Assembly (NCBI RefSeq): GCF_014644295.1
Contig: NZ_BMKK01000002.1
Coordinates: forward strand, 248,001 to 312,000
Length of the DNA stretch: 64,000 bases
Direction of reading: 5' to 3'
Origin: Emticicia aquatilis
GTDB lineage: Bacteria > Bacteroidota > Bacteroidia > Cytophagales > Spirosomataceae
The notes below the pieces were generated by a model. It ran no database searches and was not told the DNA's origin. It saw only the letters and a list, made by a program, of their open reading frames with translations. The position numbers were made by a program, and so were the translations under genes. Positions 37,937-51,595 of this stretch are shown in pieces (the first letter of the stretch is position 1; each line of letters begins with the position of its first letter).

Positions 37937-38120
37937 TGCTGTATAAATCAAAGATAAAAATGAATGTTTTAATGAGATAATGTGCTGATTATTAGCTCAT
38001 TATCTCCTTGTTTGATAGTATAAAGATACGGCAGAAAGGGTGTTTTTTGAAGTAAATGAGATAGAATCGACAAACAAGATTCATCCTTTTTTCCCCTTAA
38101 CAAAAACTCTTTTAGGTATA

Positions 38121-38153
38121 AAAAAGCCCTCCAAAAACTTAACTTTGAAGGGC
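38121..38153 (-). terminator. Terminator after the Toprim gene
   Basis: Reading leftwards, GCCCTTCAAA and TTTGGAGGGC arms are followed by TTTTTT, 26 bp past the stop. Confidence 0.8.
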
Positions 38154-38178
38154 ATAATTAAACACAATACATTTTGTT

Positions 38179-40344
38179 TTACAGACTTATTTCTATCGTT
38201 TCTGGTTCTTGTTTTTGATTATATCCATTGTCTCTTTCATCGGTAGATTTATCTAATTCTTCTCGGATAACCAAGCTATCTAATCCATCTTGATTAATTT
38301 TTTCAAGGTCAATTTTTTCAATTTTATGTACCGATATTTCACCATCTTTTTTCACTTTGACTGAATAATCAGCAATGGCAAGTATTTCGCCTTGTGTATC
38401 AGTTATGGTAATTTCTTTCAAGTTCAAATCTTTTTTCAACAATTCCACTTTACTTGTGTTATCCATTTTCTCAATGTTTTGCTCATTACGTTCTACAAAC
38501 TTCTCTCCCAACAATAGACTTTCATGCAAAACTGGAACTGAAAGGAGTGTTATGCTATCTTGTTTAAAAACAACAGAACATTTATCTGTGGAAGCAGCAT
38601 TAATCTTATCCATGAATGCAGTATCATTACTAACCATTGCTTGTAATGGTGTTTTACTAACCGTTTGGAATCTACATTCCAACGAATTATCTTCTCTGTG
38701 GTGCGTTGATAGCAAAACCAGTTCGTTTTGTTTGAATATAGTATCAGTAATCGAAATGGCTATTAACTTCTGTTTTTCTAAGGCTTGTTGTTCTTGGAAT
38801 TGTTTTTGACTGGTGGCAATATCTTTCTTGAAGGTTTCATTCCTAAATTCAATATCCTTATTTTTAATCGTCGCTACCAATTCGGGAGCTTCATATTCTT
38901 GATAGGCTGTATATTTCTCCAGATAAATATTGGCTACTTTACTATTTTTTGTATCCAAACTTTGGGCATACGCTAACGCCTCGATAGGTCGAGCGAAGCG
39001 ATTCATAGCCAGTTCAATAATCTTAGATTCTTTGGTAAGTGTTTCTTGGCTTACTACAAAAGGTTTATTTCTGCATATTTCCAAGTTATAATCTTTTTGT
39101 TTTGGATGTTCTAAGGAGATGGTACCTTCTAAGCCTTTCATGGCTACCAAACCTTTTTCGGCTTCGATAAGATAATTTTTGTGGTAAGGAAACCTAATTT
39201 CTATCTGTTGATGATGGGCTGAATCAGATAAAATACTGTACTTAATGGTATCTTCACTTCCTTGATAAATTTTACTTTCTAAGGGTTTTATCAGTTTATC
39301 TTCTACCTGTTTTTGTTGAGTTAATTTATCCTCAGCATTGATAATTGGCATTTGAAGTCTCAAAACGACCTCTTTTTTGTGAATACATGAAAAATCACCT
39401 TTGATAAGCTCAGAGGTTGGTGCGTTTGGGTGAGAAATCTGACCAATGATATTCAAGCTATGCCGATACCCACCATTGTCATTATCAAAAGCAAGGATTA
39501 TTTTTTCGGGCTGGGTTTGGTTAATTACTTTTTGAAGGGTAGCATAAGCCGCATTGGCTGGTGTACCTGCGGTGGCAATATAAATGTTGCCTTCTTGTTT
39601 TTCTCGAATAGGTTTGTGGTGTAATTCAAGATAAGAAAGTGTATCTATTGGACTTTCTGCAATGATGAGTTTATCAATCTTTTTTGAACCGAAAATATCC
39701 AAATTAGAAATGTGCATTGCACCGTCCCGTTCATTCGTTAACCTATTCCACTGTTCTTTTCGATAACCATTTTGTTCATCACTTCGATTAATAGCACACA
39801 CAAAGGCTTCATCGGTTCGTAATGGGAAGCTTATATTTTTCCAACCATAAACTCTACTATTGAATATTTGACCTTGAAATTCGGGAGAATGAAAAGAATT
39901 TTCAGTCAATCCACGACTTTCCAAATATCGGGTGTCAGTCAATGGATTCATGTTTAGGTGAAAAGAATCTACCTGCTTTTGTAAATCCTTATCGGGTTTG
40001 GGTGGTGAGGGTGGCAGTTGTACATGGGTAGCATTACCCATATAGTTGTTCAAATGAGCAAATATTTTTGCCCAATCTTCTTTTTCAACAATAGAAAAGT
40101 TTTCTTTCTTTACCAAAAAATCGACAATTGTTCCTCTGTCTGATGGGTCGCCATCTGTGATGTAGCGATAACCTTTTTGGTTGTCTTTACGAACCAAAAT
40201 TGTTTCAACACTTCTGCCGTCTTCTAAACGTTGAACGACTGTGCAGTTTTTATCACTTTTACTTTGGTTGATTTGCCAACCTTTCGATACTGCATAAGAT
40301 GCAATGTTAATTTCTTGCCTAAATCTACCTAAATTATTTTCCAT
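38179..40344 (-). CDS. Toprim-domain primase-like protein
   Basis: This 721-residue protein starts at 40344 (MENNLGRFRQEINIASYAVS). Residues 10-90 match a DUF3991-like zinc-less primase N-terminus (SKGWQINQSKSDKNCTVVQR, GTIVDFLVKKENFS). A Toprim domain follows, with E230 (KLIIAESPIDTLSYLEL) and D287/D289 (KIILAFDNDNGG). The remaining 400 residues are helical and repetitive, without a helicase Walker motif. Such proteins are thought to prime replication of the transferred strand. It is divergent from the transfer operon, with both promoters in the 100 bp at 40345-40448. Confidence 0.75.
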   Translation of the reverse strand: MENNLGRFRQEINIASYAVSKGWQINQSKSDKNCTVVQRLEDGRSVETILVRKDNQKGYRYITDGDPSDRGTIVDFLVKKENFSIVEKEDWAKIFAHLNNYMGNATHVQLPPSPPKPDKDLQKQVDSFHLNMNPLTDTRYLESRGLTENSFHSPEFQGQIFNSRVYGWKNISFPLRTDEAFVCAINRSDEQNGYRKEQWNRLTNERDGAMHISNLDIFGSKKIDKLIIAESPIDTLSYLELHHKPIREKQEGNIYIATAGTPANAAYATLQKVINQTQPEKIILAFDNDNGGYRHSLNIIGQISHPNAPTSELIKGDFSCIHKKEVVLRLQMPIINAEDKLTQQKQVEDKLIKPLESKIYQGSEDTIKYSILSDSAHHQQIEIRFPYHKNYLIEAEKGLVAMKGLEGTISLEHPKQKDYNLEICRNKPFVVSQETLTKESKIIELAMNRFARPIEALAYAQSLDTKNSKVANIYLEKYTAYQEYEAPELVATIKNKDIEFRNETFKKDIATSQKQFQEQQALEKQKLIAISITDTIFKQNELVLLSTHHREDNSLECRFQTVSKTPLQAMVSNDTAFMDKINAASTDKCSVVFKQDSITLLSVPVLHESLLLGEKFVERNEQNIEKMDNTSKVELLKKDLNLKEITITDTQGEILAIADYSVKVKKDGEISVHKIEKIDLEKINQDGLDSLVIREELDKSTDERDNGYNQKQEPETIEISL

Positions 40345-40448
40345 AAGAATAGATAATGTTTGTAAATGAAAACACAAATGTTGTAAAAATACTATCATAT
40401 ATTTTCATTAAACATAAAAAATATTTGTTTATGAAAATATAAATATTT

Positions 40449-41051
40449 ATGTTTGTACCCAAAGTATTCTTATTTCATTTAAAAATGGTCGAATGGGAGC
40501 GTAAAGAAATAATACTATTAGCCAAAGGGTTAGGACTTTTTTCAATAGGCATTTTTCTTATAGCATGGTTTGGAAACTGGGCTATTTATTTTTGGATGAA
40601 TGATGTTACGACACTTCCAATCAAAGAGTTGAGAGGTGTATTGTTAGGGCTTTCATGCTTCTTTTTGGGTATAGGGTTCATCTTTGGGTCAGTTTTTATT
40701 TTTGAAAAAACAGTAAAATACAAACGGTCGGCGTTCCGAGAGGCGGTATTCCTATGGACAGTACTTAGACATTGGACACTGGAGTGGGTAGGCATAAAAC
40801 AAAAGGAAGAAATATTAGCGGTAGAATGGCAACATTTCAAAGTCAAAGAATTAACCAAAGAAACTAATAATCCTGAGAAAAATATCCTTAAAGTTATTGA
40901 CGAACAAAAAACTTCACCTAAACCTCAAATGCTAACAAGGTCAAACAAGGAGATAATCAAGACCACCCAAGCAACCGCAGTATTGAATGAGGAAGACGTT
41001 GCCAAAATCAAAATCAGTTTAAATTTTACAAACATCAATTCAAAATTATGA
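40449..41051 (+). CDS. Membrane protein, first gene of the transfer operon
   Basis: This 200-residue protein has two hydrophobic segments (about residues 25-50, LGLFSIGIFLIAWFGNWAIY, and 60-85, LRGVLLGLSCFFLGIGFIFG), then a cytoplasmic hydrophilic C-terminus. The start may be the ATG at 40485 (MVEWERKE) instead. It overlaps the DUF4134 gene by four bases. It carries a GC-rich repeat (40725-40766) that encodes RSAFREAVFLWTVLR, closely resembling the peptide made by the copy at 45833. No family is recognised, but the position suggests a TraD-like or assembly role. Confidence 0.6.
   Translation: MFVPKVFLFHLKMVEWERKEIILLAKGLGLFSIGIFLIAWFGNWAIYFWMNDVTTLPIKELRGVLLGLSCFFLGIGFIFGSVFIFEKTVKYKRSAFREAVFLWTVLRHWTLEWVGIKQKEEILAVEWQHFKVKELTKETNNPEKNILKVIDEQKTSPKPQMLTRSNKEIIKTTQATAVLNEEDVAKIKISLNFTNINSKL
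40725..40766 (+). repeat. GC-rich in-gene repeat, copy 1
   Basis: A 42-bp segment beginning CGGTCGGCGTTCCGAGAGG aligns without gaps with 45833-45874 (about 25 identical of 42 by hand count). In this frame it reads RSAFREAVFLWTVLR. Confidence 0.6.
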
Positions 41052-41398
41052 AAACACTAAAACTTCGTGTAACCAATCAAAACTTACAATTGTTTAGCAT
41101 CTACCTAATTCTGAGCATCATTTTTTCTGTGTTGCCAAATGAAGTCATGGCACAAGGCGTTGTTGGCGGCTTAAAAAATATTAGTAAAACGGTGCAGCTT
41201 GTAGTAAATGTTGTTTTCACGATTGCTATTGTCCTCGGACTTATTTCTGTCATTATTGGATTCATCAGTGATAGCCCCAATAAAATCATGCGATTGGTTT
41301 ATTTGATAGTGGCGGTTCTGCTTTGGTTCGGATTTACGTTTGTTTTTGAGCAAATCAAAACCGATGTGGGCGGACAAGGTGGCTTTAATGGTAATTGA
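41048..41398 (+). CDS. TraE-like DUF4134 protein (VirB2-like)
   Basis: This is a 116-residue protein with a signal-like first segment ending VMAQG. Two hydrophobic helices follow (VVFTIAIVLGLISVIIGFI and LVYLIVAVLLWFGFTFVFEQ), together with the GGLKNISKTVQ block of DUF4134. In Bacteroidota elements this is TraE, corresponding to a pilin/VirB2-size membrane subunit. It overlaps both neighbours (4 and 11 bases), showing tight translational coupling in the transfer operon. Confidence 0.85.
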   Translation: MKTLKLRVTNQNLQLFSIYLILSIIFSVLPNEVMAQGVVGGLKNISKTVQLVVNVVFTIAIVLGLISVIIGFISDSPNKIMRLVYLIVAVLLWFGFTFVFEQIKTDVGGQGGFNGN

Positions 41399-41729
41399 GG
41401 TGAATATCAGAAAATCATTAGAAAAACCAACCCTTATTGCAGGAGTAGAAATGAGTGATTTGATGCTATTTCTTATTACAAGTTTTGGGTTTGTAATTGT
41501 GCTTAGTATCATGCGTACATTTTTGCCGATTCCTTCATGGGTTAATATGGTTTTGTTGGGATTACTGATAGCAGGTTTTATTGCTTTACGAAAAATAACA
41601 GCGAAGAAGCACGCCACATTTTTGAAAAGTCTAATCTATTGGTATTTGTCTGCTCCCAAAAAAGTAGAAATGTCTAAACCTAAATTATTCAGAGAGTATC
41701 ATTCTAAATTTCTAAAATCAAACCAATGA
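41388..41729 (+). CDS. TraF-like DUF4133 protein (VirB3-like)
   Basis: This 113-residue protein starts at 41388 (MVIEVNIRKSLEKPTLIAGV), overlapping the previous gene by 11 bases; a later GTG is possible. It has two membrane helices (LMLFLITSFGFVIVLSIMR, WVNMVLLGLLIAGFIALRK) and then a basic tail, as in DUF4133/TraF proteins that parallel VirB3. It overlaps the VirB4-like ATPase gene by four bases, as VirB3 and VirB4 genes usually do. Confidence 0.8.
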   Translation: MVIEVNIRKSLEKPTLIAGVEMSDLMLFLITSFGFVIVLSIMRTFLPIPSWVNMVLLGLLIAGFIALRKITAKKHATFLKSLIYWYLSAPKKVEMSKPKLFREYHSKFLKSNQ

Positions 41730-44233
41730 TAGACCAGCACAGAAATTTCGAGCAAGTGTTTCCCTATTTCGCTTTTGAAGACAATCTATTGATAATGTCT
41801 GATGGAAGAGTGGGAATTGGCTACCGTGTGCAAGGTGTTGAAATAGAGCGATTAAGCACGGGTGAATATAACAAGATTGGTGAAAATGTTTCGCAAGTCT
41901 TGAAAAGTTTAGAAATCGGTGCTTGTGTTCAAATGATGGGTTTTTATTATTATGACCAAGCTAATCTTTCGATGAAGGATAAAAACTATTACGAGCAGCG
42001 TTTCATTCATTCTTTTGGTGAAAGACCTATTCAACGCCACGAACAATACTTGTTTATCAGTTTTGGGGAAGAAAAAAACAAGGATTATACCTTGACCAAT
42101 AATTGGTTTGGTCGGGGCGGTCGGGTCTTTGAAAATACATTTAAAGACATCTCATCGTACAAAAGAAAAATAGAAACGATTGCCAATCATTTTATTTCGA
42201 TTGTCAGCATAGGCGATTTGAGCTACCAACGCTTGACTGAAGATGAGGTAATGAAAGTTCTTTGTCAATATTTCAACCTTGATTTTACACCTGACCAATA
42301 TACTATCTTCAAAACCTTCACACCCGATAAAGAACGCTTGATTTTGGGAACGGATACTGTCAATATCATCAGTATGTCGGGGCAACCTACGAATGTCAAT
42401 AATGACATGGATAATGGTTATAATGTCTCTTCTCCACAGTTGTATGCCTTGATGAATGAGTTAGAAATTCCTCATGTGCTGAGTGTTACATTCAAACCTT
42501 TGGATACCCAAAAGGCATATAACAAGATTGAATTTGAAGCAAAGAACATTGCTCGTCTGGATTTTTTGATGTCGGAACAGCACCGTGCCAAAAGTAGAGA
42601 TATGTTCGAGTTCTTGAATGAGATTACAACCAATGGCAATTCTTTGTTGAATGTCTCTGTGCAATGTTTGGTTTGGAAGCCTTCGGGCGGTATGCCGCCC
42701 AGCGGCGTTCCACACAAACAAATAGAAGATTCCATTCAAAAAGTAATGAAAGCCTATCGAGAAATCGGAGCGGAATCTTATTTAGAAAATTTGGATACTA
42801 CTAACCTTTTTGTCAGTAATGCCCCTTGTAATTCGTATCAGAATTTTCGTTGGTTATTAATGGATAATATGGTGGCAGCTTGTTATTTCACTACGACTGC
42901 CTTACTAAAAAGCGACAAGAAAGGTGATTTATTGTGCGATAGAATGGGCAATCCACTATTGGTTGATTTTTACGATACGATAAGATTTGAAAACAATAAT
43001 TCTTTGACAATTGGGGTGCCAGGTTCGGGCAAAAGTTTCACGATGGGTAATTTGATTTTACAAAGATTTTATAGAGGTGAAAGACAAATAATTATTGATG
43101 TGGGTGGTACGTATCTTTCTATCTTTTATGCCATTCCGCCTGATAAATGCCGCTATTACGAGTACGACCCCGAAAAGCCATTAAGGTATAACCCTTTTTT
43201 AGTAAACTATGACGAAATCTCTGGCGAGTTCAGATTGACAGAAGCAAAAATGGAGTTTTTGATTAATTTGATTGCTACGATTTGGCGAGGTAATTCAAAT
43301 CTTACTAATGCTGAAAGGAGTATTCTGAACAAGTTTTTGAATCAATACTTCGACGAGTATAACCAACAAAAACAAAGTACAATGCCTTGTATTTGTGGCT
43401 TTTATGATTTTTTAAATACTTTTCAGCAAGAAAACGATGGGAAAGATGTATATACAAAGATTGAAAAGAGTCTCAATATAGATGAATTACTCATCACTTT
43501 AGAACCCTTTGCAGTTGGGAGTTATCAAGCAATTTTGAATTCTGATAATAACTTCGACTTAGAACAACCGATAGCCTCTTATCCATTGATTTGCTTCGAT
43601 TTAGCCAAAATAAAGGCTAACCCTACATTATATCCAGTTGTCGGAATGCTCATCATTGAACTATCCTGCGATATTATAGATAAATATCCCAAAGTAATCA
43701 AACGCATTTATATTGATGAAGCATGGTCGATGTTAGATGGTTTGTTGGGTGGTTTTATAGAATATATGTATCGAACTGTTAGAAAATGTGAGGGGACAAT
43801 AAGCATCATTACCCAAGGCATTTCGGAAATCCAAAACTCTTCCATTGGTACTGTTGTCAAAGATTTATCTTCAACAGTTTTCATCCTTCGACATACCGAT
43901 TCCAACATGATTGATAAAAACGTCAAATTCTTTGGATTGAACAAACACGCCGAAGACTTATTGAAGTCTTTACGAAAAGATGCCGCTGATAAATGGCGAG
44001 AAATTTTTGTCAAAAGAGCAGATTTAATCAATGTTTATCGGGTAGAAGTGCCGTCGAAAATTATCCCATTGCTTACCTCTCGTGCAGAAGAGCGTAACAA
44101 AATTCGAGAAATGGCAGAAGGTGGAAAATACTTTGATTATGCTATTAACCGCTTCGTAGAAGAATGGGAAGCAGAATACCATCCAGAGTGGCGATTCCCG
44201 ACGGAACGCCGCCCGAAAGAACATGAAATTTAA
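41726..44233 (+). CDS. traG: TraG conjugation ATPase (VirB4-like)
   Basis: This is an 835-residue protein. The N-terminal half has the TraG/VirB4 pattern (VFPYFAFEDNLLIMSDGRVG, ERLSTGEYNKI). Walker A lies at residues 430-437 (GVPGSGKS), Walker B is in RIYIDEAWSML (about 673), and the arginine-finger segment IITQGISEIQ follows. It powers pilus and channel assembly. Two GC-rich repeats are embedded: one gives the glycine-proline insert SGGMPPSGVP at 320-329, in a loop where I would expect none; the other forms part of the C-terminal tail (WRFPTERRPKEHEI). Confidence 0.93.
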   Translation: MIDQHRNFEQVFPYFAFEDNLLIMSDGRVGIGYRVQGVEIERLSTGEYNKIGENVSQVLKSLEIGACVQMMGFYYYDQANLSMKDKNYYEQRFIHSFGERPIQRHEQYLFISFGEEKNKDYTLTNNWFGRGGRVFENTFKDISSYKRKIETIANHFISIVSIGDLSYQRLTEDEVMKVLCQYFNLDFTPDQYTIFKTFTPDKERLILGTDTVNIISMSGQPTNVNNDMDNGYNVSSPQLYALMNELEIPHVLSVTFKPLDTQKAYNKIEFEAKNIARLDFLMSEQHRAKSRDMFEFLNEITTNGNSLLNVSVQCLVWKPSGGMPPSGVPHKQIEDSIQKVMKAYREIGAESYLENLDTTNLFVSNAPCNSYQNFRWLLMDNMVAACYFTTTALLKSDKKGDLLCDRMGNPLLVDFYDTIRFENNNSLTIGVPGSGKSFTMGNLILQRFYRGERQIIIDVGGTYLSIFYAIPPDKCRYYEYDPEKPLRYNPFLVNYDEISGEFRLTEAKMEFLINLIATIWRGNSNLTNAERSILNKFLNQYFDEYNQQKQSTMPCICGFYDFLNTFQQENDGKDVYTKIEKSLNIDELLITLEPFAVGSYQAILNSDNNFDLEQPIASYPLICFDLAKIKANPTLYPVVGMLIIELSCDIIDKYPKVIKRIYIDEAWSMLDGLLGGFIEYMYRTVRKCEGTISIITQGISEIQNSSIGTVVKDLSSTVFILRHTDSNMIDKNVKFFGLNKHAEDLLKSLRKDAADKWREIFVKRADLINVYRVEVPSKIIPLLTSRAEERNKIREMAEGGKYFDYAINRFVEEWEAEYHPEWRFPTERRPKEHEI
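42682..42715 (+). repeat. GC-rich in-gene repeat, copy 2
   Basis: It contains the perfect palindrome GGGCGG-TATG-CCGCCC followed by AGCGGCGTTCC. It is related to the copy at 47036 and encodes SGGMPPSGVP in TraG. Confidence 0.6.
44174..44215 (-). repeat. GC-rich in-gene repeat, copy 3 (inverted)
   Basis: Read on the minus strand it starts CGGGCGGCGTTCCGTCGGG and aligns closely with the plus-strand copy at 45833. The antisense peptide would be RAAFRRESPLW, while the sense frame gives the TraG tail. Confidence 0.7.
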
Positions 44234-44244
44234 ACTAAATAATT

Positions 44245-45183
44245 ATGACAGACACTATTTTGCAAGTTACCATTAGTGGTGATGCCTTATTTAAAACGGC
44301 TCAATTACTCGCCACCAAAGCAAAAGGAAATTGCTTAGAATTAGCAGGAATCATGCTATTCATTCATTTTGCTTATATGCTATTCAAGGTCTTAGTTTTT
44401 GGCGAATCTTATGGTTCAAATGTATTGAATCTAATTCGTGTCGTGGCATTAATGTTTCTGATTGGTTATTACAATGAATTGATGGGCTTGGTGGTTGGTG
44501 CAATCAATGAATTAGCCAATACCTACACGAAAGTTGATGACATATTGGCTCAAATGAAAAAGGTTTCAGGCGATGCCAACAATCCTTCTACCGAAGCAAG
44601 CGGTTGGGATTTATTAACAATGGATTTTGGAAAACTAATCAATGTAGTGCTGACCGCTATTCAGAATGGTTTATCTATGATTATTAGGCTTTTGTTAGAA
44701 AATGTCAAAAATGTGTTAGTCGCATTTACTTACTCGGTAGGTATTTTTGCCACTGCCCTCAGTACCGTTCCAGGTTTAGGAGGAACAATTACACATTGGT
44801 TTCGCTCAATGCTGAACATTCTCTTTTGGACACTTACGCTATCTGTTTTGGACAACTTGGTGGTTGGTTTATCAACCACAATTCAAACCACAACACAAGG
44901 AAGTGATATTGTCAATATGTTGGTTATCAACCTTGCTTTGATTCTGATGTATCTCGGAGTTCCGCTTTTAACCACACTTTACATTGGCTCTTCGGCGATT
45001 GGTGGCATTATCAGAAGTATTCAAGGAGTAACAGGGGGCATGGTCGCTGCTGGGGCAAGTGTAGCAGGAAAGTCAGTTTGGGAAAAATCAGCAGGAGCAA
45101 GAACCAAAGCATGGGAAGCAACTAAACAAGGCTTTTCAGATGTTTTTAGTAGAAATAACACTACAAATCGTACAAAACCATGA
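44245..45183 (+). CDS. traJ: TraJ-like polytopic membrane protein (VirB6-like)
   Basis: This is a 312-residue protein with about six hydrophobic helices (for example LAGIMLFIHFAYMLFKVLVF, VLNLIRVVALMFLIGYYNEL, VLVAFTYSVGIFATALSTVP). An alanine/glycine-rich membrane end and a hydrophilic tail (KSAGARTKAWEATKQGFSDV) follow. Topology, size and place directly after TraG and before TraK match Bacteroidota TraJ, the VirB6/TrbL equivalent of the inner-membrane channel. It overlaps TraK by four bases. Confidence 0.85.
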   Translation: MTDTILQVTISGDALFKTAQLLATKAKGNCLELAGIMLFIHFAYMLFKVLVFGESYGSNVLNLIRVVALMFLIGYYNELMGLVVGAINELANTYTKVDDILAQMKKVSGDANNPSTEASGWDLLTMDFGKLINVVLTAIQNGLSMIIRLLLENVKNVLVAFTYSVGIFATALSTVPGLGGTITHWFRSMLNILFWTLTLSVLDNLVVGLSTTIQTTTQGSDIVNMLVINLALILMYLGVPLLTTLYIGSSAIGGIIRSIQGVTGGMVAAGASVAGKSVWEKSAGARTKAWEATKQGFSDVFSRNNTTNRTKP

Positions 45184-45812
45184 TAGCGAAAACCCAAACG
45201 GCGATTAGGCATTTCTTTGCCGTTAATGATGTCAATAAATACATTGATAGACTTTTTAACCTTTTGAAAGCGAGTATGTTTCTATTGCTTCTTTCAAATA
45301 TTCTTTGGGGAACTTTGTTTTGGGATGCTACTAAAAACTCAGACCAAAAGGTATTTGTACGTTCGGGCAAAGAAATGTTTGCCGCTTTATTAGCTGATAA
45401 CGATACTCGCAACATCGGACAGGTAAGAGGCTTGATAAACACATTTGCCAAATTGTTTTTTGAAAGCGATGCAAAATCATTTAGTGAACGACTCAATGAA
45501 GGTTTTTGGCTACTAAACAAGCAAGATGCACAGGCCATTTACAAGAACTTTATTGATGAAAAAGTACAAGAAAATTACACCAAGTTCAATGCTTATTCCA
45601 AGATAAAAATAGATAGCATGGGTGTAGATATGTCGGTTGTACCTTACAAATGTACCTTACTTTTCAAACAAGCTATCTATTTCAATGAACAAGAAAAAAT
45701 AAGCAACGTAGGGGCAATTTTTGAATTACAGCCAGTACCATATTCAGAAAAGAACCCATATGGATTACAAATTCAAAATTTTAACTATATCGAGTATAAA
45801 CCAAAACTATAA
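45180..45812 (+). CDS. traK: TraK conjugation protein (VirB8-like)
   Basis: This 210-residue protein has a short cytoplasmic N-terminus (TAIRHFFAVNDVNKYIDRLF), one membrane helix (ASMFLLLLSNILWGTLFW) and a periplasmic NTF2-like domain. That domain includes the TraK segment LINTFAKLFFESDAKSFSER and LNEGFWLLNKQDAQAIYKNF. It nucleates the envelope-spanning channel. The order TraK-TraN-TraM here mirrors VirB8-VirB9-VirB10. Confidence 0.88.
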   Translation: MIAKTQTAIRHFFAVNDVNKYIDRLFNLLKASMFLLLLSNILWGTLFWDATKNSDQKVFVRSGKEMFAALLADNDTRNIGQVRGLINTFAKLFFESDAKSFSERLNEGFWLLNKQDAQAIYKNFIDEKVQENYTKFNAYSKIKIDSMGVDMSVVPYKCTLLFKQAIYFNEQEKISNVGAIFELQPVPYSEKNPYGLQIQNFNYIEYKPKL

Positions 45813-45817
45813 AAATT

Positions 45818-46672
45818 ATGAAAAAGCTATTACGAGCGGCTTTCCGTCGGGAGTCGTCACTCTGGACAGCATTCCGCTTTTCTTTGTTATTCATCTCATT
45901 TGCTATCTTTTCTCAAAAAAAGATAGACACCATTTATGTTAATGCTACATCAACAACTTACTTGATTTTTGATGATGCCATTACTCTTGTCAATTTGGGT
46001 AATACTGATTATCAAGCACAACCCGCATCAACCAATCAATCAAGTGTAGCTACACAAGTTCTGTTTTTAAAGGCGAAAAATACGAGTGCCAAGCCAACAA
46101 CTTTACTTTTGACACACGGGAATCAGATTTATGAAGCATACCTAAACTACCAAGAACCCTTATCAAAAGCCTTTTATGATTATAGAGGCTTAGAGAAAAG
46201 AGTAGAAACGCTCAAAATAAAGGACGATAATATGCTACTGAATGATAAGTTTAAAAAGTTAGCATCTCTTAGTCCCAACATTTTATTTAAAGGCTATCAA
46301 TCGGGTATTGCTGTTAAATGTGAAAACCTTCACAATGATGAAAATGGTACTTATCTTAAATTCTTGGTGAAAAATGAGAGTTCCATTACCTATGAAATAG
46401 ATAATGTTTCCTTTTCATACATATCCAAAATGAAGAAAAAAGCTATTAATCGCTTACAATCATTAGGTATTGAGGAAGTAAATGCCTTGAAAAGTATTGA
46501 ACCAACCAAAACCATTTCCCCACAAAAGCAGATTACCTATCTCTATTATGTGCCACTCTATGCAACAACCGACAATGGTTATTTACAAGTGATTTTCAGA
46601 GAAAAGAATGGTTTACGCAATGTAAGTATAGATATTCCTTTCAAAAAAATATTAAAAGCTGAAATGCTCTAA
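45818..46672 (+). CDS. traN: TraN DUF4138 protein (VirB9-like)
   Basis: This 284-residue protein has an unusually long basic N-terminus before the hydrophobic signal (MKKLLRAAFRRESSLWTAFR, then FSLLFISFAIF). That region is encoded by a GC-rich repeat copy. The mature part (KIDTIYVNATSTTYLIFDDA, VNLGNTDYQAQPAST, QVLFLKAKNTSAKPTTLLLT) is the DUF4138/TraN domain, a VirB9-like outer component. The C-terminal beta domain (YLYYVPLYATTDNGYLQVIF) is complete. It starts five bases after traK. Confidence 0.88.
   Translation: MKKLLRAAFRRESSLWTAFRFSLLFISFAIFSQKKIDTIYVNATSTTYLIFDDAITLVNLGNTDYQAQPASTNQSSVATQVLFLKAKNTSAKPTTLLLTHGNQIYEAYLNYQEPLSKAFYDYRGLEKRVETLKIKDDNMLLNDKFKKLASLSPNILFKGYQSGIAVKCENLHNDENGTYLKFLVKNESSITYEIDNVSFSYISKMKKKAINRLQSLGIEEVNALKSIEPTKTISPQKQITYLYYVPLYATTDNGYLQVIFREKNGLRNVSIDIPFKKILKAEML
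45833..45874 (+). repeat. GC-rich in-gene repeat, copy 4
   Basis: It starts CGAGCGGCTTTCCGTCGGG and encodes RAAFRRESSLWTAFR at the N-terminus of TraN. It is the closest match to the inverted copy at 44174-44215 and aligns with copy 1. Confidence 0.75.
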
Positions 46673-46684
46673 TGACAAGCAAAA

Positions 46685-47830
46685 ATGGAAACTGCGAATC
46701 AAAATGAAGGTGTGAAAGAAGAAACTAAAGCATTAACTTCTCCTGCAAAAAAAGCAAGCGGACGGCGTTCCGTTTTCAGTGAAAAGATGTTGAGCTTGTT
46801 TAGTAAAAACAGACTTGTCTTCATTTTAATAGGCTTGTTTTTACTACTCATTGTTTTCTATAGTGTGTCAAAATACGTTCGTCAAGAGATTGTTAAAAAC
46901 ATGACTTTTTCGATGCCCAAAATTGATGTAAGTCAAGATAATGAAAGGGCGGCTCTCCACAATAACGGCAAGAAGGATACTTTTGGTGATATGCTTGATG
47001 AAGTGAAAAAATCAGTTGATGAAGATAAAACTTCATCGGGCGGAGTTCTGTTGGGCGGCACTCCGCTAAAAGTCAATGACAAAGGTTTGAAAAACTATGG
47101 TGTGGGTAATGTATTCAAAGAAAATACATCAGAAACGAATAATTCATCTGAAATAACAGCCTCAAATTCACCTTTGACTCCTAATGTAATTGAGCAAGTT
47201 TCAGTCCCAAAAATAAGAAAAGAAGGTTATGGGGAAAGAAAAAGAATTGTAAAGTCTCGTGAACCTATCAAAGTAGCCACAGGAGAAAATCCATTTAATA
47301 CGATTGTTTTGGAAAACACTACCAATAAAGTCCGTAACACACCGATTCATAAAAAAGAACTCGTCAAAGCAGCTATTTATGGTACGCAAGTGGTGCGAAA
47401 TAATTCATCGGTCAGAATAAGATTATTAGAACCAATGATAATTGATGGTATTATCATTCCTGCCAACGCTCTATGCAGTGGCATAGCCATGATGGGCGGA
47501 AATCGCTTGATAATTATGATAACGGCTATCAAATCAGGAACTGAATTTATTCCTACAAAAATGGTGGTTTATGATAGTAACGATATGTTGCCAGGCATTG
47601 CGTATCTAAGTGATGATACCAAAGGGCAAATTCGTCAGCAAAATAATCAAGCAATTGATAACATTGACAATGCAGTTTATAACATTGGCAGTGCAACAGG
47701 AGTAGTTGGGCAAGTGGGGGCTGGCGTGGTAAGTGGTATTTCTCGGTCATTGCGTTATGGTGGTGTTCAGAAAAAAGCAGGAGAAATTGAGTTAAATGAA
47801 GGTTATAAAATATTCTTAAAACAAAATTAA
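46685..47830 (+). CDS. traM: TraM conjugation protein (VirB10-like)
   Basis: This 381-residue protein has a cytoplasmic N-terminus, one helix (LVFILIGLFLLLIVFYSVSK, about residues 38-57) and a periplasmic linker rich in Ser, Asn and Gly. The C-terminal TraM/VirB10 domain includes IYGTQVVRNNSSVRIRLLEP, IIPANALCSGIAMMGGNR and PGIAYLSDD. It spans the envelope and passes energy from the inner-membrane ATPases to the outer ring. Two GC-rich repeat copies lie in the N-terminus (SGRRSVF) and linker (SGGVLLGGTPLK), both positions that tolerate insertion. Confidence 0.88.
   Translation: METANQNEGVKEETKALTSPAKKASGRRSVFSEKMLSLFSKNRLVFILIGLFLLLIVFYSVSKYVRQEIVKNMTFSMPKIDVSQDNERAALHNNGKKDTFGDMLDEVKKSVDEDKTSSGGVLLGGTPLKVNDKGLKNYGVGNVFKENTSETNNSSEITASNSPLTPNVIEQVSVPKIRKEGYGERKRIVKSREPIKVATGENPFNTIVLENTTNKVRNTPIHKKELVKAAIYGTQVVRNNSSVRIRLLEPMIIDGIIIPANALCSGIAMMGGNRLIIMITAIKSGTEFIPTKMVVYDSNDMLPGIAYLSDDTKGQIRQQNNQAIDNIDNAVYNIGSATGVVGQVGAGVVSGISRSLRYGGVQKKAGEIELNEGYKIFLKQN
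46756..46772 (+). repeat. GC-rich in-gene repeat, copy 5 (partial)
   Basis: AAGCGGACGGCGTTCCG, a half unit shared with copies 1 and 3; it encodes SGRRSV in the cytoplasmic tail of TraM. Confidence 0.5.
47036..47067 (+). repeat. GC-rich in-gene repeat, copy 6
   Basis: Two successive half units (TCGGGCGGAGTTCTG and TTGGGCGGCACTCCGCT) match the layout of copy 2 in the same relative reading frame, giving SGGVLLGGTPL. Confidence 0.6.
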
Positions 47831-49228
47831 ATGATGAAAAAACTATTACGGGTGGCATTCCGCCTAAGTTGTTTGTTGTGCATGAATCTTGACGTTCAAG
47901 CCCAAGTATCTATTGACCCAACAGCAATAGAGCGATTAATTCAGTTAAAAAATTTGGTAGATAAAGCCAAAACTCAGATTGCACAATTAAAAAGTGTAAC
48001 TAAACAAGGTGCTGCAACAAAGGCTAATACTACTGGTATTTTGGAAACAGGTTCAAAAATTGAAGACCTCCTGCGAAGCCCCGATGAGTATCTGAAACTG
48101 GCTTACCATTCAATGATGTACAACGATGCCACCGCCATCATGAAGTTGAATAGTGCTTTAAAAGGTTCTTTTACCTCTAACTTGAATACCAATTTTAAAA
48201 TCTCAGATTTAACACCCTATATGGATGGTAAAAACTATTCCGATAAAAGTGGTTCAACTTTATACGACCTTGTAATGAAGGGAACAACCATTGATAACAA
48301 AAATGGTGTTCAGTCATTCAGTAATTTTTTGAGTAGTCAAAAATCCTTTATGAGTCGCCAATATGCTCTACAAACTGCTCTGCAAAAAAAGAAAATGCAG
48401 CAAGCCATGACTTACTATCAAATGGCCGAAGAATTAGAAAACAAAGCGATGGCAATTAATGATGGTGTAAAAAGCCGAAACAATGGCACGGCTTTTCGAT
48501 TGAGTAATCAAGGCGTATTTGGCGATATAGGTAGCGATTTGGGCGGAGATTTATTTGGAGATTTGTTTTCTTCGGAGGGAATTTCAATGCCTTCCTTTTC
48601 ATCGGGAACAATGACTGTCAATGGGAAAAATTATGTCATGGATGCGGTAGGCAATGTTTATGATGCTAACGGCACATTAATTACGAAAGATTTAAGTTTT
48701 GGGGCAAAAGAACAAGCATTAGATGCATTTCTAAAAGATAATCCTAATCTAAAAACGACACTGGGCAATGCTTTTAATGATTTTATGTCTAATCCTTTTG
48801 GGGCAATTGGGGCATTATTCAAAGGAGGTCCCAAAACACCACAAGATTATTTGGACGAAATTATGAAACAAAGATTAACAACTTTGAAACAAAACGAAGC
48901 CAATGCCATTCAAAATGAGATTTATAATAATATTATTAAAAATGCCTTCGCTGCAAAAAGTGATGATTATTCATCTTTGGCTAATAGTTTTGATGCAAGT
49001 CCCATCGGTAACTTATCAGGAATGTCAGCGGGACTACGAATGAACACTGGCGAACGAATACTGCTCAATAAAGCAAGCATTGATTTACTGACCAAAGCCC
49101 AAGAGCTACGAGAAAAAGGCGATAAGTTGATGTTGGAAGCCTTAGACCGTACCGAAACACAAAAACGCTTGGACGGTATTTGGTCAGCACAAATGTTTAG
49201 AAATACACTTTCTAACATTAAAATCTGA
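47831..49228 (+). CDS. Periplasmic conjugation protein, VirB5/TraI-like position
   Basis: This is a 465-residue protein. A signal peptide (LSCLLCMNLDVQAQ) is preceded by MMKKLLRVAFR, which is nearly the same 24 bases as the start of traN (repeat copy 7). The mature protein begins with a coiled coil (IERLIQLKNLVDKAKTQIAQ, LKSV) and is largely helical (YQMAEELENKAMAINDGVKS; LTKAQELREKGDKLMLEAL). A glycine/phenylalanine-rich central segment follows (GSDLGGDLFGDLFSSEGISM). This resembles TraI-type or VirB5-like periplasmic helical proteins in Bacteroidota operons. It starts one base after traM and overlaps the lipoprotein gene. Confidence 0.6.
   Translation: MMKKLLRVAFRLSCLLCMNLDVQAQVSIDPTAIERLIQLKNLVDKAKTQIAQLKSVTKQGAATKANTTGILETGSKIEDLLRSPDEYLKLAYHSMMYNDATAIMKLNSALKGSFTSNLNTNFKISDLTPYMDGKNYSDKSGSTLYDLVMKGTTIDNKNGVQSFSNFLSSQKSFMSRQYALQTALQKKKMQQAMTYYQMAEELENKAMAINDGVKSRNNGTAFRLSNQGVFGDIGSDLGGDLFGDLFSSEGISMPSFSSGTMTVNGKNYVMDAVGNVYDANGTLITKDLSFGAKEQALDAFLKDNPNLKTTLGNAFNDFMSNPFGAIGALFKGGPKTPQDYLDEIMKQRLTTLKQNEANAIQNEIYNNIIKNAFAAKSDDYSSLANSFDASPIGNLSGMSAGLRMNTGERILLNKASIDLLTKAQELREKGDKLMLEALDRTETQKRLDGIWSAQMFRNTLSNIKI
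47848..47864 (+). repeat. GC-rich in-gene repeat, copy 7 (partial)
   Basis: ACGGGTGGCATTCCGCC, at the same codon position after the start (MKKLLR then VAFR) as copy 4 in traN; the identity extends back through the start codon. Confidence 0.55.
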
Positions 49229-50258: not shown

Positions 50259-51228
50259 TTAGGCATAAATTTTTGAAAGCCTAAACAGGAAAAAGTTGAC
50301 ATTTCGTACCCCTCTAAACTGGTTTCTGAAAGCCTTTATCTTAGCATTGAAAGATTCTGCTGAAGCGTTTGTACTTCTATTGTCAAAGAAATTCAAAATT
50401 TTCTCATAATTATTCTCAATGGTTTTGGCAATAGTATTGAACGATTTGAAGCAAGCTTTTTCAACATCATTGTACCAAAGAGCCAATTTTTTAAAGGCAA
50501 CAATTCTTTCTTTTGAATGAGTAAAAATATCAGATAGCATTCTGCTAAGTTGATAGGCTTGTTGTAAATCAGGATATAATCGAAATAAGATTTCTGCTCT
50601 ATGCACTTGCGAAACTGACCAATCTTTCGGAGTGCCGAACCAGTTGTTTTTTGAAGAGTAAATAGCGACTACGTGCTAATAACTGCTTCAAAGTATCTCC
50701 ATTAGCAAGTACATCTGCTATAAATGGTACTTTAGCTTCCTTAGCCAGTTCCATTTCTTTATTTTCTTGCTCAATAGCTTGCCATCTGTGGTCAATTCTG
50801 ATTTTTTGAACAGCATCGCTGGCGAGCTGTTGAACGTGGAATCTATCGGCTACCATCTTAGCTTTAGGAAAACTTTTCTTTACAATTCTTTCCATTGTAG
50901 GTGCTAAATCCAAAGTTACTTCCTTTACCTTTTTTCTAACAGATTCTGACATTTTCAGCAAAATATCAATTACTTTATCACTTTCCGTACCTTTTATCAT
51001 AGCTATCAAAGCTCCCTTGCGACCTTTACCAGATTTATTGGTGAGAATTGTGTAGAGTTCACCCTGTGATAAACTTGTCTCGTCAATTGACAAATATTCA
51101 CCCATATTCTCTGGAAATAATAGCCAATCTTCTGCGTGGTCTGCCTCTTTCCAACTACTAAAATCACTCAAATGTGCGGCATACTGTTCTTGAAGTCTTT
51201 TACCATCTAAACCGTAGATTTCTCCCAA
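50259..51228 (-). pseudogene. ISAon1-like transposase, frameshifted
   Basis: The catalytic part is in two frames. The upstream piece (51228-50599) contains LSIDETSLSQGELYTILTNK, the second acidic block VTLDLAPTMERIVKKSFPKA and DRFHVQQLASDAVQKIRIDH, and runs into nonsense after LLARSRYLLFKKQ. The downstream piece (to 50259) continues NNWFGTPKDWSVSQVHRAEI and contains the third acidic residue in STNASAESFNAKIKAFRNQF. The junction is a run of six A (T on the plus strand, 50647-50652) and needs a +1 shift, consistent with a one-base gain or two-base loss. Upstream of the TTG at 51228 the frame is open back to about 51275 and includes the expected QYLDNTPIS, so the true start is unclear. Confidence 0.8.
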
Positions 51229-51250
51229 TATTTTGCAACTTATAGGGGTA

Positions 51251-51595
51251 TTATCTAAGTACTGCTTTTAAAAAAGTGGCGAATTCCTTCGTCATTCGAG
51301 TGCCATTTGCTACTAATTCCCAGTTTCGGTAAACTATTTTTCCAGTCTCTTCATTCAACCATTTTCTGCGTTTGATTTTTAGATAACACGCTTTGCCTCG
51401 AAGTGGGAAGTCTCGTACGGTTTCTTCATCAAAGAAACCCTTAGATTGTAGCTTTTGACCAGTATATTCTTTAGGATGAATATTCTTTTCAGATAAATAA
51501 AACGTGTAAGAATCACTCGTTTTCTGAGCATCGGTTAGTTCAAAATATTCCTGTAATTCTTCGGGTAGTATGAATTGTAGTAGGTTCGTTTCCAA
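51251..51595 (-). CDS. ISAon1-like transposase N-terminal protein (orfA)
   Basis: This is a 114-residue protein (METNLLQFILPEELQEYFEL, LPLRGK-type block FPLRGKACYLKIKRRKW, YRNWELVANGTRMTKEFATF). It matches the small first reading frame of ISAon1-family elements, which carries the DNA-binding region. It ends just where the orfB frame opens, in a TTTTTTAAAA context, so the two proteins may be made separately or as a fusion by frameshift. Confidence 0.82.
   Translation of the reverse strand: METNLLQFILPEELQEYFELTDAQKTSDSYTFYLSEKNIHPKEYTGQKLQSKGFFDEETVRDFPLRGKACYLKIKRRKWLNEETGKIVYRNWELVANGTRMTKEFATFLKAVLR

Follow-up and report, generated by a model that had tools for sequence, protein, structure and literature searches.

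Miniature inverted-repeat transposable elements (MITEs) form a class marked by its size, by target duplication and by mobility in trans. Three other kinds of short repeat have been described. Rickettsia palindromic elements (RPEs), of ∼150 bp, are known within genes (PMC10969869). Repetitive extragenic palindromic sequences (REPs) are 20–50 nucleotides (nt) long, carry a GTAG-type tag and have a partner transposase, TnpA-REP (PMC8266576); intragenic REPs are also known (PMC3733652). The GC clusters of yeast mitochondria are mobile GC-rich palindromes in an AT-rich genome, found in genes (VAR1), singly or in tandem (PMC4464245). Here we describe a 15-nt repeat unit, CGGGCGGCGTTCCGC, of which decayed copies lie in the conjugative transfer genes of Emticicia aquatilis. 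The stretch analysed, called the window, comprises 64,000 nt (positions 248,001 to 312,000 of NZ_BMKK01000002.1, assembly GCF_014644295.1) of contig 2 of the 6.75-Mb genome.

The unit has features in common with each of these systems. Like RPEs it is a palindromic repeat lying in frame in unrelated protein genes, where it is tolerated. An earlier note, made from the window sequence, had pointed to this resemblance, which holds for the presence of mobile in-frame repeats in genes but not for size, since the unit is ten times smaller; it also occurs in two phyla and in 15-nt tandem blocks. The unit works like an RPE but is not one, and is set apart by its size, the class being ∼100–150 bp long. 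With REPs and their REP-associated tyrosine transposases (RAYTs; REPtrons, REPINs) it shares the form of a short, GC-rich, interspersed hairpin with some copies within genes (PMC3733652), but it is 15 nt long, lacks a tag, showed no such partner next to it in the Emticicia loci examined and occurs within REP loops as a piece of its own. Like MITEs it is small, non-coding and, if mobile at all, moved in trans, whereas it lacks a target duplication, falls far below MITE size and had no matching transposon among the open reading frames (ORFs) read between one pair of units. The yeast mitochondrial GC clusters are the closest analogue, as GC-rich palindromes dispersed singly and in tandem in AT-rich DNA, although the unit resides in bacterial chromosomes and conjugative elements and is one conserved 15-mer across phyla.

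The unit can be written, as DNA, as CGG followed by the hairpin GCGG-CGTT-CCGC, and it occurs singly or in head-to-tail blocks. Its register was determined by scoring the 15-mers at each offset past the first unit and adding up the scores of the five multi-unit copies in the window (40725, 44215 on the minus strand, 45833, 42684 and 47037). Offset 15 gave 51 matches; the mean over offsets was 19.4 and the second-best score 35. The earlier note had proposed a unit of ∼42 bp; such a segment consists of two or three decayed 15-nt units in tandem. We think it slightly more probable than its negation that the segments in the window are copies, mostly old and mutated, of a mobile 15-nt insertion unit which would move through a hairpin.

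The earlier note expected that a genuine repeat family would have further copies in the genome, and these are present. The E. aquatilis genome contains 13 exact copies of CGGGCGGCGTTCCGC and 42 copies with up to two mismatches, against none for a reversed-pattern control; a simpler pattern gave 31 matches across the genome, against six when reversed. In an 800-kb sample of this genome (40 stretches, 20 of them picked around matches), 12-mers of the unit were the most over-represented words, at 14 occurrences against 0.02 expected. The same sample (loci L061–L100) contains a second palindromic repeat, CCCCTAAAGGGG, with 11 occurrences in 800 kb against 0.01 expected.

Across the family Spirosomataceae, the exact 15-mer was found in 59 of 200 genomes and 21 of 36 genera, with 0–17 copies in each, and the reversed control was absent from all 200. 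One carrier, Arcicella aurantiaca DSM 22214 (genome G052), is a cultured strain, so the repeat cannot be put down to errors of metagenome binning. A set of 395 genomes from the phylum gave 12 with a match, three of which belong to the family; the other nine had single matches and compare with eight control genomes, so Bacteroidota outside the family are at chance level. A scan of 84,980 species with the pattern W-15mer-TT returned at least 115 stretches, some of them chance-like and in GC-rich genomes, and the matches listed include 23 Pseudomonas and Stutzerimonas loci. In 20 whole genomes picked because they held a match, exact copies numbered up to 18 (a Pseudomonas metagenome-assembled genome, MAG), 16 (P. 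otitidis DSM 17224) and 10 (P. carbonaria), and no genome had more than one control match. Two stretches with a match were found among the IMG/VR viral contigs. The unit is not a feature of conjugation genes but is genome-wide, family-wide and also present in Pseudomonadota.

One Emticicia genome, G062, has a distribution of its own. All 17 exact copies lie within 0.57 Mb of a 5.18-Mb contig (C1:2796960–3366742; L160–L170), each directly after AG and 14 of them at AG^TG, mostly in arrays of 8-nt words such as TGAATTAG and TGAATGAG. A different GC-rich repeat family, GCAGAGTCCCCTTGCCG and its variants, is strongly over-represented in a sample of this genome (L449–L464).

MurE provides empty sites for comparison. 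Among 11 genomes of the genus, two (G110 and G123) carry the unit and nine do not. In seven of these nine the gene is exactly 15 nt shorter, and two (G085 and G027) have one extra codon just upstream. The unit is unmutated and at the identical position in both carriers, and nearer relatives of each carrier lack it. In the MurE tree the carriers fall into separate groups, G123 with G074 (support 1.00) and G110 with G128 and G000 (0.994), which implies that the unit was inserted twice at one nucleotide, or was inserted once and then lost exactly several times. Judging from these sequences, the unit may thus return to the same nucleotide.

DNA comparison of 103 copies with other genomes of the genus gave 17 gapped alignments, six of them with clean 15-nt gaps (L175, L185, L188 and L196 among them). 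Closer alignment added 15-nt gaps at L193, where the pair is 95% identical as protein, and at L102, whose product we take to be an IS256-like transposase. At the protein level, 19 of 44 in-gene copies had a homologue showing a net gap of at least three residues, and for 11 of these the net gap was five residues in at least one comparison; the MetH protein of Arcicella is a net five residues longer than the three relatives compared. No target site duplication was seen at the clean 15-nt sites (MurE, L193, L102 and the REPs described below), and no flanking DNA was lost there. Because the empty sites differ by 15 nt without target duplication, the reading frame is kept.

The 113 distinct exact copies in the fetched family loci include 44 in long ORFs, defined as those of 180 codons or more in which the unit is flanked by 20 codons on either side. 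All six frames are used: SGGVP (16 copies), AERRP (11), SGTPP (9), RAAFR (5), GRRSA (2) and RNAAR (1). The unit has no stop codon in any of the six frames and its length is divisible by three. Within a gene, an insertion would therefore add five residues, mostly SGGVP, AERRP or SGTPP, and would survive where a loop, linker or terminus is tolerant. Long ORFs contain fewer copies than random placement would give (14 of the 30 E. aquatilis loci examined, out of 42 copies, compared with 75% of random positions), as expected if selection removes most coding insertions. The host genes presumably include those for MurE, PrmC, MetH, a DnaG-like primase and Def-like and PheT-like proteins. MurE, PrmC and others of these are generally held to be essential.

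PrmC carries the unit in two species in opposite orientations; orthologous loops hold it one way round in E. aquatilis (L135/L049) and the other in G128 (L123). In the G128 protein, in-frame AT-rich word repeats (HQTSNIKHQT) adjoin the unit.

A constant short sequence at many sites would also suit a footprint, left after a larger element had inserted and been excised. Such scars are, in our judgement, very improbable: sites are in genes held to be essential, where a large intermediate should kill, and there is no target duplication. A weaker point is that the ORFs between paired units in G094 are not transposase-like, three other paired regions having been scanned for units only. A direct gain of 15 nt without duplication in genes held essential speaks for direct insertion of the 15 nt and counts against any large intermediate, and also against a DDE transposase of the standard type.

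In Pseudomonas and Stutzerimonas, the unit occupies the loops of REP-like hairpins. Among the matches listed, 22 of 23 loci have the unit 9–13 nt after a GTRG tag in such a loop (random rate, 3.6%), and the 23rd has GCGG in place of the tag. The empty REPs in those loci are mostly 22 nt (GTAGGGTGGGCTTCAGCCCACC) and the filled ones 37 nt (GTAGGGTGGGT-15-TTCAGCCCACC); REPs with stems of the GTRGGAGCGG type are likewise mostly 22 nt when empty and 37 nt when filled. As the filled REPs have differing stems, one 15-nt unit, in two phyla, entered different REPs. The GTRG tags belong to the host REP and not to the unit, which has CGG before its hairpin. Two Pseudomonas REPs of 36 nt, at L302 4860 (minus strand) and L383 4068 (plus strand), have a different GC-rich loop (GGGGGACGCCCAG and GGGGGCGCCTAG), perhaps another loop insert.

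These loops bring to mind a REP element reduced to its minimum and mobilized by a Y1/RAYT (TnpA-REP) transposase of the host genome, which we regard as unlikely. The short hairpin, the lack of target duplication and the seat in Pseudomonas REPs would fit, Y1_Tnp genes are present in all 11 Emticicia genomes, and TnpA-REP works on single-stranded hairpins (PMC8266576). However, the unit has no GTAG tag. When 30 of the 57 Emticicia Y1_Tnp matches were cut out with ∼1.5 kb on each side, the sole unit (up to three mismatches) beside one was the MurE copy, although a RAYT might act from a distance. Moreover, Y1_Tnp genes are present in G027 and G085, neither of which has an exact copy. In each of G000, G074 and G123 (L428, L421 and L436), murE has a Y1_Tnp gene just downstream.

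The flanks of the copies show some preferences. Outside G062, the right flank is T-biased, with 43 of 70 copies having T at +1 and the same number at +2. Both flanks share a 7-mer in 20 of 50 Emticicia copies (among them the tandem copy L189 and the G062 locus L121) and in 7 of 15 Arcicella copies, a modest effect relative to the 17% of random positions.

Tandem blocks contain one to three units and so are multiples of 15 nt. Sites with two or three units are also found in one gene common to G000, G110 and G074, in Marinobacterium nitratireducens and in one Spirosomataceae MAG. No additional copy of the full three-unit form was found when the fetched loci were searched with the middle and last units. 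Blocks of this kind, including those in Marinobacterium and the MAG, and the lack of target duplication would be compatible with templated addition, in which, as with telomerase, a short template is copied at a break by a polymerase or reverse transcriptase to give one 15-nt unit or several. We consider this rather improbable, since units of the same block carry unequal numbers of mutations, in keeping with separate events or with long decay. If the unit is instead a mobile insertion, blocks would arise by further insertions beside an old copy or by later duplication.

For such a mobile unit, insertion into the Pseudomonas hairpin loops suggests folded single-stranded DNA. We infer a route in which an enzyme acting in trans on the single-stranded, folded unit would join the hairpin (CGG plus GCGG-CGTT-CCGC) into exposed DNA, so that a single unit would insert directly, adding 15 nt with no target duplication or loss of flank at clean sites. 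The targets would often precede TT and would comprise REP hairpin loops in Pseudomonas and AT-rich stretches in Emticicia and Arcicella. No benefit to the host need be supposed. That the 15-nt piece is itself the unit of transposition, moved in trans, passed between Bacteroidota and Gammaproteobacteria and keeping reading frames, is a tentative proposal to which we give somewhat less than an even chance.

An Rfam search of five loci found three tRNA genes only, none covering an intact unit, and Rfam and tRNA scans of selected loci found only tRNAs. In L108 (G077; 1501–1730) and L131 (E. aquatilis; 1501), units lie directly 5′ of fragments resembling tRNA 3′ ends (TTCGATTCCC...). In L108 the unit and the tRNA-like fragment form four tandem repeats of ∼70 nt adjoining a tRNA-Arg gene.

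Within the window, GGCGGNNTTCCG with up to one mismatch occurs 11 times, against 0.85 expected from shuffles, and 10 of the 11 lie within 40727–47862. In the transfer region the 15-mer with up to three mismatches gave 10 matches (two of which overlap on opposite strands, in copy 2), against a mean of 0 in 40 dinucleotide shuffles; with up to four mismatches there were 12, against 0.175. Four of the 42 copies with up to two mismatches are in transfer genes (40725, 44201, 46759 and 47849). The seven related segments listed in the earlier note all exist, within 0–3 nt of the starts it gave, six on the plus strand and one inverted (44171–44215); the inversion, the differing frames and the quoted peptides are also correct. 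These segments and one weaker unit are as follows.

40725..40769, plus strand: copy 1, three decayed units (40725, 40740 and 40755; the first with two mismatches), in frame in ORF 40449–41051 (KRSAFREAVFLWTVLR)
42684..42713, plus strand: copy 2, two units (42684 and 42699; three mismatches each) in TraG/VirB4, peptide SGGMPPSGVP
44171..44215, minus strand: copy 3, three units (the first 44215–44201, one mismatch); the plus strand codes for the TraG C-terminal tail
45833..45877, plus strand: copy 4, three units near the N-terminus of a TraN-like DUF4138 protein (Pfam) (MKKLLRAAFRRESSLWTAFR)
46759..46773, plus strand: copy 5, single unit (two mismatches) near the TraM N-terminus, a doubtful insertion
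46946..46960, plus strand: extra weak unit (four mismatches) in TraM, not among the original seven
47037..47066, plus strand: copy 6, two units (three mismatches each) in a TraM linker, peptide SGGVLLGGTPL
47849..47863, plus strand: copy 7, single unit (two mismatches) in the signal-peptide region of ORF 47831–49228, a doubtful insertion

Two related elements allow these sites to be compared. The G110 element is 98% identical over window positions 38001–47013 and has copies 1–5, its contig ending before copies 6 and 7; G074 has a homologous element without the 30 nt in TraG and without the TraG tail. Copy 2, corresponding to 10 residues, is missing in G074, and nine columns are missing in nine more distant homologues, giving a gap of 9–10 columns in all 10 aligned homologues other than the near-identical L231, which is not among the 10. 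The C-terminal tail is missing in 12 of 12 homologues read to the stop codon (L232–L243), L231 again being the exception. The distant homologues thus lack these residues, as the earlier note expected of inserted sequence. An AlphaFold model of TraG (mean pLDDT 60.2, 12 sequences), which is weak, places the internal insert in a coil (318–330) that joins a strand to a helix, with the C-terminal insert lying in the tail beyond residue 818. For copy 1, the G110 sequence is the same and G074 has no alignable homologue. At copy 4, which is 78% complementary to copy 3 over 59 nt, the G074 N-terminus is shorter, and at copy 6 the G074 homologue is shorter by ∼18 nt and not 30; the borders are not clean in either case.

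By these alignments, two of the seven sites, both in TraG, appear to be insertions backed by empty homologues, two are backed in part and two are not. The earlier proposal of in-frame insertion at loops and termini is thus upheld at the TraG coil and tail, in part at copies 4 and 6, and not at copies 5 and 7, which give no sign of insertion; its interpretation as a whole is partly supported.

The alternative that the repeats are GC-rich coding sequence arisen by chance or convergence, or a motif with a function that was reached by point mutation, agrees with the lack of a unit-sized length change at copies 5 and 7 relative to G074, and with the nine matching against eight control genomes in Bacteroidota outside the family. 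The shuffles and reversed controls at or near 0, the 15-nt empty sites and the use of six frames make it scarcely credible; it is ruled out for the repeat family as a whole, though it may hold for copies 5 and 7.

When a 101-base stretch of DNA spanning copy 4 was used as a query, 42 matches were returned. Once the query and the inverted copy are set aside, these all fell on a common gene start, ATGAAAAAGCTATTACG (one on positions 79–99), and none on the repeat. At 50259–51595 of the window, three consecutive minus-strand ORFs resemble, by eye, fragments of one broken transposase.

Several observations weigh against a mobile 15-nt unit. No moving enzyme or partner gene was found. Of the 17 gapped DNA alignments, one gap was 14 nt and 10 were longer or unclear; 8 of the 19 net protein gaps were not five residues (range, 3 to 16). 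Among the 11 that were, L171 and L198 are weak matches (32 and 44% identity), L173 and L174 rest on paralogues, and L189 shows one extra unit and not an empty site. REPs of 21, 23, 34 and 36 nt occur as well, among those with GTRGGAGCGG-type stems. The ends of the unit can be placed only to within one base: the most parsimonious insertion is WCGGGCGGCGTTCCG before C for MurE and the majority of REP cases, and CGGGCGGCGTTCCGC for L102. Within tandem blocks the newest unit does not consistently occupy one end, and a lone 18-mer folds no better than its own shuffles (z −0.65). Low-GC loci are not enriched in flanking stems of at least 6 bp (4 of 53, against ∼17% of random positions), so the preference for hairpin loops is drawn from Pseudomonas. 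In the window, G074 has partly similar sequence at the site of copy 5 with no unit-sized length change, and no unit-matching length difference at copy 7.

No description of the repeat was found in the titles and abstracts retrieved from open-licence PubMed Central (subscription papers and preprints lay outside this scope), and in its open-licence text the 12-mer GGCGGCGTTCCG appears verbatim in a single, unrelated paper. We know of no mobile element as small as 15 nt. As far as we are aware, a frame-neutral 15-nt unit shared between phyla would be new.

If the unit is a clean inserter of 15 nt, it would be smaller than any mobile element we know of, and it would amount to linker scanning by nature, in which proteins such as MurE and MetH gain five residues. 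Two puzzles, palindromes within genes and odd REP loops, are connected by it across phyla. Since the exact unit, its empty sites and species with 10–18 copies are at hand, the enzyme that would move it can be sought by comparative genomics and in vitro.

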